From Deltaproteobacteria bacterium (GTDB taxonomy: Bacteria > Desulfobacterota > Desulfomonilia > Desulfomonilales > Desulfomonilaceae), in NCBI GenBank assembly GCA_016875095.1, contig VGSG01000040.1, forward strand, positions 1 through 36,530: a stretch of DNA of 36,530 nucleotides, written 5' to 3'. The stretch's first letter is position 1; each line of letters begins with the position of its first letter. Positions 7,515 to 15,512 of this stretch are shown in pieces. The notes under the pieces were generated by a model. The model worked only from the letters and a program-made list of their open reading frames with translations. It did not search any database and was not told where the DNA came from. The translations under genes were made by a program, and so were the position numbers.

Positions 7515-8165
7515 CTATTCCTCGAAGGTTTTGATATATCCTCCCTCAGCAGGCTCCTCTCTCCACGCGCCGCCTCTGAGGCTGGGGTCTTCCTTCATCT
7601 TCTCATACCGGTCCGCTTCCTCCTGGCACCGGACGCAAAGGCGCGCAGCGGGGAATAGGCGGAGCCGCTGCTCGGGAATCGGCTCGCCACAGTCTTCGCA
7701 CATACCGTAGTCACCGTGCTTCAGTCGTTCCAACGCGTCTTCGATCTCCTGTATCTGCTTGTGCTGCCGCATGGAGATCCTGGCATCCAGTTCCCGTGAG
7801 ATCTCATCGGTAGCCAAGTCGATTTCGTCTCCCTTTTCGATCGCGTCGATGCTCCGACCCACCTTGATAGTGCTGAGCAATTCCAACAGAACCTGCCTGG
7901 GGTTGAACGCGCCGTGAACCGTCGAGGCCGTGGCGCGGGGGGGGGTCGCCTCAGCCCTCTTTGCCTCACTTAGGTGCGGTTGAACCGGGCTCTTGAGAAC
8001 TTCCGGCTCTTGTCTTGACTGGGACAAGAGTTCAGGGTCAGCGATCCGATACAAATTCTTCCCGTCAATCACTTTTCGCTCGATCTGGCCTTTCTTTACC
8101 TTGCCTCGGATACTGTTGGGGACAACACCCAACGCGTCCGCTATTTCTTCACGGGTCATCCACAT
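7515..8165 (-). CDS. DksA/TraR-type zinc-finger regulator with N-terminal helix-turn-helix
   Basis: A 216-residue protein from the ATG at 8165, chosen because AGGAG lies nine bases upstream; an ATG at 8183 would add six residues. The C-terminal half is DksA-like. It has a helical region with the coiled-coil-tip motif DxxDxA (DEIDLA, about 113-118) and then a C4 zinc finger with Cys156, Cys159, Cys177 and Cys180 (YGMCEDCGEPI...LCVRCQ). DksA-family proteins bind RNA polymerase in its secondary channel; the conserved tip suggests this one can too. The first 45 residues look like an added helix-turn-helix (MTREEIADALGVVPNSIRGK), joined by a Pro/Ala-rich linker. The protein may combine DNA binding with polymerase binding. 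It is transcribed divergently from the ArsR operon. Confidence 0.85.
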   Translation of the reverse strand: MWMTREEIADALGVVPNSIRGKVKKGQIERKVIDGKNLYRIADPELLSQSRQEPEVLKSPVQPHLSEAKRAEATPPRATASTVHGAFNPRQVLLELLSTIKVGRSIDAIEKGDEIDLATDEISRELDARISMRQHKQIQEIEDALERLKHGDYGMCEDCGEPIPEQRLRLFPAARLCVRCQEEADRYEKMKEDPSLRGGAWREEPAEGGYIKTFEE

Positions 8166-8252
8166 GATTTCACGCTCCTTCATCTGGGCTCGTCTCGCTC
8201 AAATAATCATCGGAGCCGCCGATGGCAATATCGGCCCGACCGCGGAGCGGGC

Positions 8253-8281
8253 ATTTTAGACACGCTCCTGCCCGCTGTCAA
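8253..8281 (-). promoter_or_regulatory. candidate promoter of the DksA-like gene
   Basis: On the minus strand TTGACA (8281-8276) and TAAAAT (8258-8253) are separated by exactly 17 bases, close to the sigma-70 consensus. Its -35 box faces the -35 box of the ArsR promoter 18 bases away. The two form an 8-base inverted repeat (TGTCAAGA / TCTTGACA). Confidence 0.6.
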
Positions 8282-8299
8282 GATCTTTTTCCGCGTGTC

Positions 8300-8329
8300 T
8301 TGACAAGGGTGGAGAATCGATATTAATAT
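8300..8329 (+). promoter_or_regulatory. candidate promoter of the ArsR/selenoprotein operon
   Basis: A perfect TTGACA at 8300-8305 is followed after 18 bases by TAATAT at 8324-8329, or after 17 bases by TTAATA. The -10 box lies inside the 34-base palindrome, so a repressor bound there would block polymerase directly. Confidence 0.6.
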
Positions 8330-8354
8330 ATCAATAGCTATTGATATATTAATA
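8321..8354. promoter_or_regulatory. 34-bp perfect palindrome, probable ArsR operator
   Basis: The half site TATTAATATATCAATAG is followed immediately by its exact reverse complement. The palindrome covers the -10 region of the operon and lies 37 bases before the ArsR start codon. The core ATCAATAG/CTATTGAT resembles the interrupted dyads bound by ArsR/SmtB dimers. It is AT-only except for four bases. Autorepression by the ArsR gene next to it is the simplest reading. Confidence 0.7.
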
Positions 8355-8391
8355 CAAAAGGGCTGAAAGCGGCCGCCTAGCGGAAAATTTC

Positions 8392-8727
8392 ATGCGCCAC
8401 AGGCAGGCAAACCATACAGAGGAACTAGACCGGAACCTCCCCGCGGTGGCTTTTGTGAGCAAATGCCTCTCGGATGAAAACCGCCTGCGGATTCTCCTGT
8501 CGCTGTGTAACGGCAGGAAGACCGTCTCCTCGGTCGTGGATGAGATGAATCTCTCCCAACCACTGGTGTCCCATCACCTCAAGGAGTTGCGACGCGCGCT
8601 CCTGGTGAAAGTTGAACGCAGAGGGTTGTTCGTGTACTACGAGCTGGTTGACGAGAGAATCGTGGACATTGTTCGTCGGTTGGCAAGGCTGGCAGGTGAT
8701 CTTTTGTCACAAAGGACTTCCTTTTAG
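8392..8727 (+). CDS. ArsR/SmtB-family winged-helix repressor
   Basis: A 111-residue protein with the ArsR fold: an N-terminal helix, the recognition region MNLSQPLVSHHLKELRRA (about 55-72) and the wing VERRGLFVYYELVDE. ArsR proteins are dimers that leave DNA when a metal, metalloid or redox signal reaches their cysteines or histidines. Only two cysteines occur (KCLSDENRL and LSLCNGRK, about residues 24 and 39), and the classic ELCVCD metal motif is absent (VSSVVDEM stands at that place). The inducer is therefore not arsenic-type by sequence and may be a thiol, persulfide or selenium signal; this is inference. It is the first gene of the operon. Confidence 0.88.
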   Translation: MRHRQANHTEELDRNLPAVAFVSKCLSDENRLRILLSLCNGRKTVSSVVDEMNLSQPLVSHHLKELRRALLVKVERRGLFVYYELVDERIVDIVRRLARLAGDLLSQRTSF

Positions 8728-8752
8728 CCGCGCAAGAGCGGAGGAGGATCTG

Positions 8753-9208
8753 ATGAATAAAGGCCCCATTCAAAAGGCTGTGGAATCCATGGATCCAATG
8801 GAAGCGGCAAGCGAGCTGACGGAAGTCGCGAGGGAACTCTTTTTCGTGCTTGGCGAGGAAGCCCTACGTGATTTCCTGGCGCGACTCATCGGTGGTGAAG
8901 AAGGTGACAAGACCATCGGCCTGGTTCACCTGTGACTGGCTACCTGTGTGGACGAAGGTGTCGATCCACGGGCCATGTGTCGAAGTCTGGTGGAAAAAAT
9001 CAGTCAGTCCGAGCAATTGAGATCGGTCGCGGACCCTGAGTTACTCGTGCTCTTCGAGGACTGGCTGGAGGAGTTGGAGAGCGAAGCCCTTCGTGTGGCC
9101 GAGCGCAGCGGGGCTATCACGGAGCGGAAATTGGCCGGAGAATTGGGCCTGACTGAATCAGGCGCGTTGTTCCTTATTAAGAAGCTCAAAAGAGATGGAA
9201 AGATATGA
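8753..9208 (+). CDS. probable selenoprotein with C-terminal winged-helix domain (in-frame UGA = Sec61)
   Basis: Read through one UGA at 8933-8935, this gene encodes 151 residues; without recoding it gives 60 residues plus a second frame that has no ribosome-binding site. AGGAGG precedes the ATG at 8753. Both halves are in the same frame, separated only by that codon. The first half is helical and acidic. The UGA sits in HL-U-LATC, giving a UxxxC pair (Sec61, Cys65). The C-terminal part (about 105-151) looks like a winged helix: SGAITERKLAGELGLTESGA, then IKKLKRDG. A hairpin with an AGGU loop follows the UGA by 20 bases. I do not recognise the family. A redox-sensing regulator or ArsR partner is plausible. 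The alternative is two separate small genes. Confidence 0.65.
8948..8969 (+). promoter_or_regulatory. SECIS-like hairpin after UGA 8933
   Basis: GTGGACGA pairs with TCG-A-TCCAC: eight base pairs with one bulged A, and a five-base loop AGGTG at 8956-8960. The loop begins 20 bases after the UGA. The AGGU loop start matches that of the E. coli fdhF SECIS (AGGUCU), and bacterial SECIS models ask for a G in the first two loop positions 16-37 bases from the UGA. Confidence 0.65.
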
Positions 9209-9289
9209 CGGCAGAGAGTCCTCAACGTTTGCTCGCGAGGCCTATTTGCTACGGGCTTGCGTGGACACTAGGAGAATGACTTCTTCGTA

Positions 9290-11044
9290 ATGGAGAGGGA
9301 AGTGAAATTGAGAATACAGGCGAAGACGCTTATTCTGCCCATTATTGTCACCGCGCTGACGCTGGGATTTCTCTGGTTCACAAGTGAGGCGGACACCGAG
9401 CGCGAACCCACTTGGGAGGACGTGGTTGCACAGGCTGCACGAGGCGGATACAAACTCATCAACACGGAAGAGCTGGAGGGGCTGTATCGGAAGGATCCCG
9501 GGGAAATGCTGCTGGTGGACACACGGCAGGAGTGGGAATTCGCGATGGGGCACATCAAGGGCGCAATCAATTTCCCCATGGATCCGACGTGGCGCGCGAG
9601 ATGGTTGAAAAAAAGCGACCTGGAAAAGGCGCTCGGCGCGGACAAGGACCGACCTATCGTGTTTTACTGAGCCGGTCTCACGTGAGTCCGTAGCGACTCC
9701 GCCGCCCGTGTGGCGGTCAATTTAGGTTATCGCAACGTTTATCGTGATCCTCAAGGCTTCCCGCAATGGGCCGCCGCCGGGCTGCCCGTAGAGTCAGTTT
9801 CTTCGGATCGTGCGCGAGCCGCAGGGCAGAGCGCCGGCCCGGGCCCTCTTCAGGGCTGGCCTCTTCTTTGGGCGCTCCTGGGCGTCTTTATGGGAGGCCT
9901 GGCGCTCAATCTCACACCGTGCGTTTACCCTCTCATTCCGATCACTGTTTCTTATTTCGGAGGCAGAACCGGCCAGAGCCGCGCCGCGCTTGCTGTTCAC
10001 GGCGGGCTGTACGTTGTGGGGCTGGGAATGACGAACTCCGCTCTGGGTGTCGCTGCCGCGCTGACGGGAAGTTTTATGGGAGCCGCTCTCCAGAGCCCCG
10101 CCGTTCTTGTTGGTGTCGCGGTGGCGCTCCTATTCTTTGCGGCAAGCCTTTTCGGGCTTTGGGAGCTTCGTTTACCCAGCGCGCTTATGTCCGTGGCCTC
10201 CAGGTCTTACACAGGGTATTTTGGCGCCTTATTCATGGGGCTCACGCTAGGGATAGTGGCCGCCCCTTGTGTGGGTCCTTTTGTTCTTGGCTTGCTGACC
10301 TGGGTCGCAAGTCTGGGAAATCCCTGGCTGGGGTTTGTGATTTTTTTCACCCTGAGCCTCGGCTTGGGCTTGCCGCTCTTCTTCCTAGGCGTGCTTTCCG
10401 GAAGCTTGGAGAACCTGCCCCGTTCCGGCGAGTGGATGCTCTGGGTGCGCAAAGTAATGGGTTGGGCGCTGGTGGGGATGGCCGCGTACTTCGTGCGGCC
10501 CATATTGCCCGAGGGCGCCGGTGTTTTCTTACTCGCGGGCGTGGCTTTGGCCGCGGGAATTCATGTGGGGTGGATCGATCAAACCACGGCTGCTTTCAGG
10601 GCCTTCGGTTTCTTCAAGAACCTGGCGGGAACCGCTGGAACAGTGGTCGGCGCGTTCCTGATCGGCTCATGGCTCATGGCAGCTCCGGGCGTCTCCTGGC
10701 AACAGTATTCGGATGAACTGCTGGAGAAGGCCCGGGCCCAGGGCAAGTCGGTGGTCATGGATTTCTCCGCAAGTTGGTGCACGCCGTGCCGTGAGCTGGA
10801 CGAGATAACGTTTCGCAACCCCGAAGTGGCCAGGGCCGCGGCTGGCGATTTTGTCATGATCAAGGTGGATGTGACAGGGCAATCGGATACCAAGACCCGC
10901 GAGCTCATTTCACGCTACTCTGTGAAAGGTGTTCCCACAGTGGTTTTTCTGGATGATCGAGGTGAAGAACGGCAGAGTTTGCGGCTCGTGGACTACGCGC
11001 CGCCGGACCAAGTCCTGGCCAGGATGGCCCAGCTCAGGAAATGA
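9290..11044 (+). CDS. rhodanese-DsbD-thioredoxin fusion, probable selenoprotein with two Sec (Sec127, Sec132)
   Basis: Read through UGA codons at 9668 and 9683, this is one 584-residue protein. Residues 1-31 hold an N-terminal membrane anchor. A rhodanese domain follows (about 50-165: VDTRQEWEFAMGHIKGAINFP). Its active site reads VFY-U-AGLT-U-VRSDSAA, where relatives have CGGxTC. The frame continues without break through LGYRNVYRDPQGFPQW into a DsbD membrane domain with its two cysteine segments (NLTPCVYPLIP and VAAPCVGPFV), and ends in a thioredoxin domain with WCTPC. Rhodanese moves sulfane sulfur; DsbD passes electrons from the cytoplasm across the inner membrane. Conventional calling would give a truncated rhodanese plus a DsbD starting at 9710, which lacks a ribosome-binding site. 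A GTG at 9302 is an alternative start. Confidence 0.8.
9684..9699 (+). promoter_or_regulatory. SECIS-like hairpin for UGA 9668
   Basis: GAGTC (9684-9688) pairs with GACTC (9695-9699) around the loop CGTAGC. The loop starts 18 bases after the first UGA and has G in its second position. The stem contains part of the second UGA. With only five pairs, this is the weakest of the four hairpins. Confidence 0.4.
9699..9716 (+). promoter_or_regulatory. SECIS-like hairpin for UGA 9683
   Basis: CCGCC (9699-9703) pairs with GGCGG (9712-9716) around an eight-base loop beginning with G. The loop starts 18 bases after the second UGA, the same spacing as for the first UGA. The two hairpins share base 9699, so they would form one after the other as the ribosome advances. 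Confidence 0.45.
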
Positions 11045-11088
11045 GCCGTCATGCCGGCATGAGTTCAAAAAGACGAGGAGGAGTAAGG

Positions 11089-11403
11089 ATGCTCAAAGTA
11101 AGGTTTTTCTTGAATGAACCCAATGGCAAACCCTGACGGCATTTTAAGGAGATAGCGCCCAGGTTGGGCGCGGACTATGCCGTGGAAATCGAGATGACTT
11201 CCCAGCCCAAGGCTGAATATGAATCCGAGGAGTGGGCCGACCAGGATCTTCCCTGCGCGCCCGCGGTCATGATCGGGGATGATGTTGTTGTGGAAGGATC
11301 GGACATCAGTGAGGAGAAACTTGTGGGAGCGCTTCGGGAGCGTCTGGGAATGCCCCCGTTGGAGCCTGAGAAGAAAGGGATCTTAGGGCGACTCTTCACG
11401 TGA
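11089..11403 (+). CDS. small thioredoxin-fold selenoprotein (in-frame UGA = Sec16)
   Basis: Read through the UGA at 11134-11136, this encodes 104 residues from the ATG at 11089, which has a GGAGGAG-type ribosome-binding site just upstream. The UGA lies in NEPNGKP-U-RHFKEIAP, after a first beta strand (MLKVRFFL), where a thioredoxin-like fold carries its redox residue. A later LPCAPAVMIGDDVVVEG segment resembles the cis-Pro strand of thioredoxins. Without recoding, only a 79-residue frame from TTG 11164 remains, lacking the first strand and active site. It follows the rhodanese-DsbD gene by 44 bases, so it may accept or donate electrons there. It may belong to the thioredoxin-like (seleno)proteins named SaoT, but I cannot confirm that. 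Confidence 0.75.
11155..11171 (+). promoter_or_regulatory. SECIS-like hairpin after UGA 11134
   Basis: GCGCCC (11155-11160) and GGGCGC (11166-11171) form a perfect six-pair GC stem with loop AGGTT. The loop starts 24 bases after the UGA. It shares the AGGU loop start with the hairpin at 8948 and with E. coli fdhF. Confidence 0.7.
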
Positions 11404-11495
11404 AGCACAAACCCGCACACTCAAAAATCAGTTGAAATCGAGGCCGCATCGGACTAAGTCTTCCCGCCATGAAACCCATGATTCGGGAGGATACC

Positions 11496-12050
11496 ATGCG
11501 CCTCATCCACACCTTTTCTCTCGCGCTGTTGTCGATCGCAATCGCGATCCCGTCTGCGGCCTGGCAAACGCAGACACAGCAACCCCAACCGACTGCGCAG
11601 CACGGGGGGCCGGCTCCTTCTTTGCCTGCGCAGCCGCCTTATCAGGGTTATTCCGGTGGCAACCAGCCTGCTCCGGGTTACAGTCAAGCCGGACCTTACG
11701 GCGAGGCCGCGCCGCACAATAGTCCCCAGGTTGGGCAAGGCGCTTACCCCAACTATCCGTATCCGCGGCATCACAATCCTTACTATGACGAACTCAATCC
11801 TCGGATAGCCATATCAAACGCCCTGGAGTGGTTGATCGCGCTCCCCTCCAATTTCATGGATCGGGTGTCCAATTTTATAGATGGGCAGTTGTTCCCGGAA
11901 GCTCCGGCCACATCGGGAGGAGCCGGAGATGCTTCGGCGCCGGCTTTTCAGCCTCCCCCAGGTTATGATTCGTCGGCTCCTTTGCCCCCGGCCAAGCCGT
12001 ATCCGAGTGGGCCGCCGCAGTTCTCGCCGTTTCAGGGCCCGCGCAGATAA
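11496..12050 (+). CDS. secreted Pro/Tyr/Gly-rich protein of unknown function
   Basis: A 184-residue protein from the ATG at 11496, chosen for GGGAGG five bases upstream; an ATG at 11469 has no site. A signal peptide covers about residues 1-22 (MRLIHTFSLALLSIAIAIPSAA). The mature protein is rich in Pro, Gln, Tyr and Gly, with no cysteine. A short ordered-looking segment in the middle (ALEWLIALPSNFMDRVSNFIDG) may be an amphipathic helix. No domain was recognised. It lies 92 bases after the thioredoxin-fold selenoprotein and could be the last gene of that operon, but nothing ties it functionally to it. Confidence 0.65.
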   Translation: MRLIHTFSLALLSIAIAIPSAAWQTQTQQPQPTAQHGGPAPSLPAQPPYQGYSGGNQPAPGYSQAGPYGEAAPHNSPQVGQGAYPNYPYPRHHNPYYDELNPRIAISNALEWLIALPSNFMDRVSNFIDGQLFPEAPATSGGAGDASAPAFQPPPGYDSSAPLPPAKPYPSGPPQFSPFQGPRR

Positions 12051-12087
12051 CCGGCCGCGATCTTTCGCCACTGCGGTGTGGAGCGGA

Positions 12088-12108
12088 TGCCGACCGTTTT
12101 GGTCGGCG
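12088..12108 (+). other. stable hairpin after the Pro-rich gene
   Basis: GCCGACC and GGTCGGC form a perfect seven-pair stem with loop GTTTT, 38 bases after the stop codon. There is no T tract, so an intrinsic terminator is possible but not typical. Confidence 0.35.
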
Positions 12109-12239
12109 CAGGTCCCGAGGCGGGTCAAGGCTCTCGCAGGTCATGATAAACTAATAGGGGAAAGGCATTCTCCCGGTTCTGTTCCGATTCGCCGATGCGG
12201 GCGAACATGAGACTTGGGTTCTCCTTCGGGCGCGACACG

Positions 12240-13800: not shown

Positions 13801-13832
13801 GCGTTGTAGTTTTTATTACTATGGGAGTCGCC

Positions 13833-15512
13833 ATGAGCGCATTTTCCCGGACAGCCCTTGGACGCCTTGAAACAACGGCTCTGGCGCGTCTGGGGATCGG
13901 ATCACCCTTTACGATCCCATCAGGGATTGTTACTACGACTCCTACGGTGCTTGCGCGCATCGCTCGGGACGTTTCCGATATCGGATTTCTCACGACTAAA
14001 ACCATCAGTCTTGAACCCCGCGCAGGCTACCGAGAGCCCGTTCTGCACGAGTACTTTCCAGGGTGCTTCGTCAATGCGGTCGGCTTGGCCAATCCAGGGG
14101 CACGAGCCTTTCTTGACGCTATGCGCCCTCTTCTGCCGTTGTCGAACCGCAAGCCGCTCGTTGTCTCCATCATGGGCGCGAGTCCGGAACAGTTCCTGAA
14201 ATGCGCGCGGATCCTGGAGCCTATCGCGGACGTGTTCGAGCTGAACCTTTCCTGTCCGCACGTCAAGGGCGCGGGTCAGGTGATAGGTTCGGACCCTCAA
14301 GCGGTACAGACGATTATTCGGCTTTTGAAAGAAGCGGTAGCTAAGCCGATCGTCGCGAAACTCTCGCCAAATCTTGGGGATATCCCCGGGATGGCGCGGC
14401 TGTGCCGCGATGCCGGCGCAGATGCGCTAACCCTCATCAACACTGTGGGGCCCGGCATCGCCACCGATGATGACGGAAATCCGATCCTCAGCAATGTGAC
14501 CGGGGGTCTGTCAGGCGCAGGGGTCTTGCCCTTGGGCATTAGGGCAGTGCGAGAGGCGGCCGCTGCCGTGGACATCCCAATCATCGCGTGCGGAGGTATC
14601 TCCACTGCCAAAGACCTGGTGGCGTACCTGAACGCGGGCGCCGCGCTCTTCGGCATAGGGTCCGCGCTTGCGGGGATGGACACCAAAAAGATCGCGAAAT
14701 ACTTTTCTAGGCTTATGGCCGACCTGGACGGTAACGCGGAGACCGCGGAGATTTCCAAGGTAGCTTCAAAGCGTATGTCCACTACTTATGCGCGCGCGAA
14801 GGTCCTGGAAAACAGGCCAATGGGCGATTCCATGTTCCGGCTTCGCCTGGAAAAGGGACCGGAATGCCGACCAGGTCAGTTTTTCTTCCTGAGACTGCCG
14901 GAAGTTGGTGAGAAGCCTTTTTCACCTGCACAAGCGAATCCCCCTGTCTACCTGGTGCGGGAGGTCGGCCCGTTCACCCGAGCGCTCAAAGGGCTTTCAC
15001 GCGGAGATCGGCTGTACATGAGAGGCCCGTACGGCAAGGGCTTCCCCGATCTGCGGCGGTCAAAAGGACGACTCGTGCTCGTGGGCGGAGGCACAGGCGT
15101 TGCGCCCATCATGATGGCGGCCTCCAAATGGCGCGAATCGGTAGTGAAGTCTTTTGCGGGCTTTGCCAAGCCCGTAGACGAGTGGTTCCGGAGGCGCCTC
15201 TTGGAGACGCTTCCCCAGTGCCGCATTGTTGTGGACCGAGAGGACGAGCCAGGCGAGGTGGTCAGGGCCCTCGCGGAAGACACGCGTGCCTATCCTGAAG
15301 TGTATAGAGGCAGCTCGGTTTTTCTCTGCGGACCCACCGCCATGATGGACGCCGCGGTGAGCGTCCTGCGCGATGTCGTGCCATCTCGGCGCATCCATCT
15401 CGGGCGCGAAGACATCATGCGCTGCGGCATCGGCATCTGTGGTAGCTGCGGCGCTCAATCAGGACTGCGCTCATGCGTAGACGGCCCTGTGATGCCTGCA
15501 ACCTCAGACTAA
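13833..15512 (+). CDS. dihydroorotate dehydrogenase fused to a PyrK-like FAD/2Fe-2S subunit
   Basis: A 559-residue fusion from the ATG at 13833, with GGGAG five bases upstream. Residues 1-305 form a class 1 dihydroorotate dehydrogenase barrel: FELNLSCPHVKG with the class 1 catalytic Cys, TLINTVGPG, and the FMN phosphate site ACGGISTAKD...GIGSAL. Residues 320-559 resemble PyrK: an FAD region (GQFFFLRLP), an NAD-type GGGTGVAPI loop, FLCGPTAMM, and a 2Fe-2S cluster with CGIGICGSC and a last Cys in SGLRSC. In type 1B enzymes these are separate PyrD and PyrK chains that pass electrons from orotate synthesis to NAD. Here they are one polypeptide. The dihydropyrimidine dehydrogenase family shares the barrel and is the main alternative. 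No pyrimidine genes adjoin it. Confidence 0.85.
   Translation: MSAFSRTALGRLETTALARLGIGSPFTIPSGIVTTTPTVLARIARDVSDIGFLTTKTISLEPRAGYREPVLHEYFPGCFVNAVGLANPGARAFLDAMRPLLPLSNRKPLVVSIMGASPEQFLKCARILEPIADVFELNLSCPHVKGAGQVIGSDPQAVQTIIRLLKEAVAKPIVAKLSPNLGDIPGMARLCRDAGADALTLINTVGPGIATDDDGNPILSNVTGGLSGAGVLPLGIRAVREAAAAVDIPIIACGGISTAKDLVAYLNAGAALFGIGSALAGMDTKKIAKYFSRLMADLDGNAETAEISKVASKRMSTTYARAKVLENRPMGDSMFRLRLEKGPECRPGQFFFLRLPEVGEKPFSPAQANPPVYLVREVGPFTRALKGLSRGDRLYMRGPYGKGFPDLRRSKGRLVLVGGGTGVAPIMMAASKWRESVVKSFAGFAKPVDEWFRRRLLETLPQCRIVVDREDEPGEVVRALAEDTRAYPEVYRGSSVFLCGPTAMMDAAVSVLRDVVPSRRIHLGREDIMRCGIGICGSCGAQSGLRSCVDGPVMPATSD

Follow-up and report, generated by a model that had tools for sequence, protein, structure and literature searches.

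What is made by a gene whose frame meets two UGA codons within fifteen bases of each other, in the middle of a rhodanese domain, and then runs on undisturbed into a DsbD-like membrane protein? The gene lies in a 36,530-nt stretch of a Deltaproteobacteria bacterium (GCA_016875095.1, contig VGSG01000040.1), here called the window. A sequence-only reading of it proposed a single fusion protein with two selenocysteines, and the analysis below leads us to much the same answer. On the evidence of sequence and its comparison, the product of 9290-11044 is, with a probability of about 0.93, TsoB, a double-selenocysteine protein coupled to DsbD. Translation with TGA read as U confirms that all 584 codons are open, that U127 and U132 (the UGAs at 9668 and 9683) are the only internal stops, and that the true stop is the last TGA, at 11042. 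The proposed run from rhodanese through DsbD to thioredoxin is borne out as well: Pfam places Rhodanese, DsbD_TM and Thioredoxin_7 within this one frame. The parts of the gene are these:

9290..11044, + strand: tsoB, rhodanese/DsbD/thioredoxin double selenoprotein, starting at ATG 9290 or GTG 9302 (NF045694, Pfam)
9320..9385, + strand: N-terminal membrane helix or signal anchor, residues 11-32 (predicted helix, hydrophobic sequence)
9494..9775, + strand: rhodanese domain, residues 69-162 (PF00581, 57 bits; PDB matches 6mxv, 2hhg, 1qxn)
9668..9670, + strand: UGA codon of Sec127, at the canonical rhodanese nucleophile position
9683..9685, + strand: UGA codon of Sec132, at the second, proposed resolving, position
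9869..10507, + strand: DsbD_TM transmembrane domain, residues 194-406, with Cys211 and Cys327 (PF02683, 138 bits)
10697..10954, + strand: C-terminal thioredoxin domain (DsbD gamma-like; Thioredoxin_7, residues 470-555), with Cys497-x-x-Cys500 (PF13899, 59 bits)

The real start may be GTG 9302 instead of ATG 9290, since a GGAGAGG run stands just 5' of the GTG and many homologues start near residue 10-12. An AlphaFold model of the protein is of moderate quality (pLDDT 73, pTM 0.47); its top match among solved structures is DsbDgamma, and several rhodaneses match too, including Sud of Wolinella (1qxn). An Rfam scan of 8000-12200 returned chance matches only.

The sequence-only reading took such an enzyme to be undescribed, and in this it was mistaken. 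Against the NCBIfam model NF045694, ‘rhodanese/DsbD fusion-like selenoprotein TsoB’, the protein scores 933.2 bits over residues 13-582 (cut-off 805); its selenocysteine codons, 127 and 132, form the motif UxxxxU, and tsoA and tsoC adjoin it. TsoB, with this motif and two selenocysteines, appears in a 2026 review that cites Haft & Tolstoy 2025 (mSystems) for it, and Tso is described there as a three-selenoprotein operon (PMC13188914). The tsoABC operon, with tsoB as its middle gene, occurs in sulfate-reducing bacteria and their relatives. Judged by sequence, the TsoB of the window is an ordinary member of the family described in 2025: it is 53–67% identical to other members and shares with them the architecture, UxxxxU, both selenocysteines and the operon, with no distinguishing feature. 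The deep-Sep paper mentions neither rhodanese nor TsoB. The new part is apparently the comparative evidence, set out below, that each UGA has a hairpin of its own, although Haft & Tolstoy 2025 may already report it; for a family already described, the value of the present analysis lies in confirmation, in evidence at the level of RNA and in a concrete mechanism to test.

Several better-known proteins resemble TsoB in part. DsbD (NF001419) has in common with it the DsbD_TM domain with both membrane cysteines and the C-terminal CxxC thioredoxin domain, but in TsoB the alpha domain is swapped for the double-selenocysteine rhodanese, and against the full-length DsbD family TsoB scores 227.7 bits, under the cut-off of 330. 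Other rhodanese selenoproteins, forms 1-4, have a single selenocysteine, in the motifs UxxS, UxxG and CxU (PMC13188914). One such family, NF041203 (CxU), likewise carries its selenocysteine in the rhodanese domain, but it has one only, in another motif, and TsoB scores 34.6 bits against it (cut-off 115). The polysulfide-sulfur transferase Sud of Wolinella (PDB 1qxn) matches TsoB in its rhodanese fold; it is not known to have a selenocysteine or a membrane electron relay.

That the two UGAs are not there by chance, as the sequence-only reading argued, is upheld by the homologues. Of the 57 homologous tsoB loci (52 distinct sites), whose records are nearly all titled Desulfobacterota, every one has TGA at both sites and none has cysteine or any other sense codon there; the proteins are 53–67% identical to this one, and the frame is conserved either side of the UGAs. 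Between and after them, in GxxUVRSDSAARVAVxLGY, conservation is among the highest in TsoB, and Sec127, Sec132, C211, C327, C497 and C500 are invariant (44/44 homologues). The nearest cysteine counterparts are stand-alone rhodaneses of Desulfobacterota (L089-L093 and L064:9055-9483), ~40% identical and without the DsbD or thioredoxin part. Because these read YCGFVKCTRS, with cysteine where TsoB has selenocysteine, both selenocysteines would replace cysteines at equal spacing. To this extent the UGAs do fall at a CxxxxC pair, as had been claimed; only residue 127, however, aligns with the conserved cysteine of solved rhodaneses, residue 132 lying in an active-site loop two residues longer than usual. 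The domain is a rhodanese both by fold (PF00581, 57 bits) and by the canonical cysteine position of residue 127. The sel genes on which the case depends, selA, selB, selD and that for tRNA-Sec (selC), are all present in the host genome, and we infer that both tsoB UGAs are read as selenocysteine. The host selD (G000:C7:103502-104416) itself has one in-frame TGA, and SelD is probably a selenoprotein, too. That both selenocysteines occupy one active site at all 57 TsoB loci, with no cysteine form found, suggests a chemistry that is hard for cysteine.

What might that chemistry be? TsoB would be an inner-membrane protein in which the rhodanese domain replaces DsbD alpha on the periplasmic side; we place it there because the N-terminal helix is preceded by basic residues (the positive-inside rule) and because the topology of DsbD is known. 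Sec127 would be the nucleophile, attacking the sulfane sulfur of a polysulfide, a persulfide or thiosulfate, or else some similar substrate, and Sec132 would resolve the Sec127 adduct to form a diselenide. The C-terminal CxxC, C497/C500, would then reduce the Sec127-Sec132 diselenide with electrons passed from cytoplasmic thioredoxin by way of C211/C327. TsoB would act, in other words, as a reductase or detoxifying enzyme and not simply as a sulfurtransferase; TsoA and TsoC would be its partners. We offer this sulfane-reductase chemistry tentatively, at rather less than even odds. Somewhat less probable, to our minds, is a rhodanese part that serves as a thiol- or selenol-disulfide oxidoreductase on protein partners, a true replacement of DsbD alpha, and does not handle sulfane sulfur at all. 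It has in its favor that the rhodanese domain occupies the place of DsbD alpha and that the cysteines of the DsbD relay are invariant; the retention of both the rhodanese fold and the rhodanese cysteine position speaks against it, as do, indirectly, the ArsR-rhodanese regulators that adjoin tsoB in several relatives.

Turning from the protein to the message, a bacterial SECIS was taken to be a stem-loop that has a G at loop position 1 or 2, is spaced 16-37 nt from the UGA (the range is that of PMC13188914) and folds with an energy of -7.5 kcal/mol or lower. Two candidates follow the UGAs of tsoB:

9684..9699, + strand: hairpin A, candidate SECIS of UGA1, conserved in 50 sequences; its 5' strand starts within UGA2, taking in the G and the A
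9701..9717, + strand: hairpin B, with loop CGUGU (G at position 2), a candidate SECIS for UGA2; two of its pairs show compensatory synonymous changes

Both agree with the rule in loop and spacing. The six-base loop of hairpin A, CGUAGC, has G at position 2 and lies 18 nt from UGA1, and the loop of hairpin B lies 21 nt from UGA2 and 36 nt from UGA1; the sequence-only reading, which put a hairpin 18 bases after each UGA, was thus right for the first and not for the second. Hairpin B folds with -9.5 kcal/mol; hairpin A alone reaches -4.8, short of -7.5, and the UGA1 segment of the window, folded by itself, prefers a competing fold.

Comparison across 50 sequences adds a good deal to this. RNAalifold returned the two hairpins unprompted. 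In the alignment, 54 columns counted from UGA1, hairpin A takes up columns 17-32 and hairpin B columns 34-50, and 99.3% of the cells of the two together are paired, against 94.2% in shuffled alignments and 23-60% in slid controls; cells in which both partners changed number 32, against 8.2 in shuffles (0/500 shuffles). In hairpin B, pair 36-48 is GC in 25 sequences, AU in 15 and CG in 7, and pair 39-45 is CG in 39 and UA in 10. Each of these four columns is the third base of an alanine or valine codon, so the protein sequence does not dictate this covariation. Helix A behaves differently: its pairs hardly vary, being formed in 99.2% of cells, and in the 50-sequence alignment such changes as it shows are wobbles, not compensatory double changes, among codons that are otherwise conserved. 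Of 200 conserved degenerate tsoB codons, the two with the lowest synonymous variability are Val133 (GTC in 41/43) and Asp136 (GAC in 43/44), and the third base of each pairs within helix A.

Since the last two bases of UGA2 are the first two of the 5' strand of helix A, hairpin A must be melted while UGA2 is being read, and hairpin B is then the sole remaining hairpin. Each UGA would accordingly have its own hairpin to aid it, a division of labor that the comparative RNA evidence supports. A more economical arrangement, in which hairpin B serves both UGAs and hairpin A is dispensable, would be helped by the weakness of hairpin A alone and by the 36 nt that separate UGA1 from the loop of B, inside the range of 16-37 nt. 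We consider it unlikely, roughly a one-in-four affair, for it leaves unexplained both the near-complete pairing of helix A and the exceptional constancy of its third-base positions. Joined to the chemistry above, one hairpin per UGA gives our full picture: a rhodanese that has become a di-selenol reductase in the periplasm, acting on sulfane sulfur or a related substrate, fed by the DsbD relay and made with the help of two successive SECIS elements, hairpin A, overlapping UGA2, for UGA1, and then hairpin B for UGA2 once A is melted. As a whole it is possible, and we would not yet give it an even chance. The paired hairpins are, in any event, a natural test of how a ribosome reads two UGAs 15 bases apart. 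In one tsoB, from a groundwater MAG (L062:6304-6369), both UGAs and the 5' part of hairpin A are kept, but an in-frame deletion that starts just past the Asp codon has taken away hairpin B together with a large part of the rest of the rhodanese domain; this is a broken gene or an assembly error, or else a natural test of hairpin B.

The same conservation bears on whether there is one gene here or two. UGA1 could terminate a short protein, with a separate DsbD-like protein translated from GTG 9710; a frame of 444 aa, 9710-11044, does start there, and relatives have stand-alone DsbD-like proteins without a rhodanese (L067-L077). Rhodanese homology crosses both UGAs unbroken, however, the residues between and after them are highly conserved, neither a sense codon nor a different stop takes their place in any homologue, and conserved hairpins lie 3' of them, all of which makes two genes very improbable. 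A pseudogene or sequencing error can be practically dismissed, since the same two TGAs recur, in an intact frame, in 52 distinct sequences at 53–67% identity from many assemblies. We rejected both of these readings on the ground that the homologues keep the two TGAs and the frame.

The sequence-only reading was sound on the double-selenocysteine fusion itself, but it overlooked the selenoprotein genes on either side:

8392..8727, + strand: ArsR-family (HTH_5) regulator, 5' of the operon (Pfam PF01022, 50 bits)
8753..9208, + strand: tsoA, LULAxC-motif selenoprotein (LULATC), Sec codon TGA 8933-8935 (NF045695, 192.8 bits, cut-off 170)
8949..8968, + strand: conserved hairpin 3' of the tsoA UGA, its loop, AGGUG, 20 nt from that UGA (RNAalifold, 24 sequences)
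11089..11403, + strand: tsoC, NEPxGxxU-motif selenoprotein (NEPNGKPU), Sec codon TGA 11134-11136 (NF045708, 130.7 bits, cut-off 45)
11156..11170, + strand: conserved hairpin 3' of the tsoC UGA, its loop, AGG, 25 nt from that UGA (RNAalifold, 40 sequences)

The UGAs of tsoA and tsoC are both kept in relatives, and GGAGGAGG precedes the ATG of tsoA at 8753. Inspection of TsoA and TsoC revealed no evident signal peptide, and the two may be cytoplasmic. A similar ArsR regulator, or an ArsR-rhodanese fusion, stands ahead of the tso genes in many relatives, and such regulators, some of them joined to a rhodanese, would fit an operon that responds to sulfur or metalloids. The fusion, with CRGPYC (CxxxxC), lies directly 5' of tsoB in L039, L043, L045-L048, L051 and L060, with no TsoA match between the two; its C-x4-C spacing is that of the enzyme motif.

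Full-length TsoB turned up, in the genome scan, under record titles of Desulfobacterota or deltaproteobacteria, with the exception of one titled uncultured proteobacterium. Among the 60 genomes of the relatives search, nine, the host's own among them, have a full-length TsoB over the cut-off, and a tenth, G011, has TsoA, TsoC and a fragment of TsoB. All nine positives also have dsrA, used here as the marker of sulfate reduction, which 27 of the 60 have overall, a comparison confounded by kinship since most of the positives belong to one family whose every member has dsrA.

The surroundings of the operon vary. Six loci (L025, L032, L035, L038, L044 and L062) have a second TsoC-like selenoprotein, DPCGLTU or EPCGLTU, between tsoB and tsoC. 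A membrane protein of the VTT/TVP38 family often lies 3' of tsoC (in >12 relatives, e.g. L066:10121-11296), and the L066 copy is joined to a domain of the low-molecular-weight phosphatase type, a family with arsenate reductases among its members. Farther along the window, at 13821-15512, a single frame of 563 aa resembles, by eye, a fusion of dihydroorotate dehydrogenase with a PyrK-like FAD/iron-sulfur reductase.
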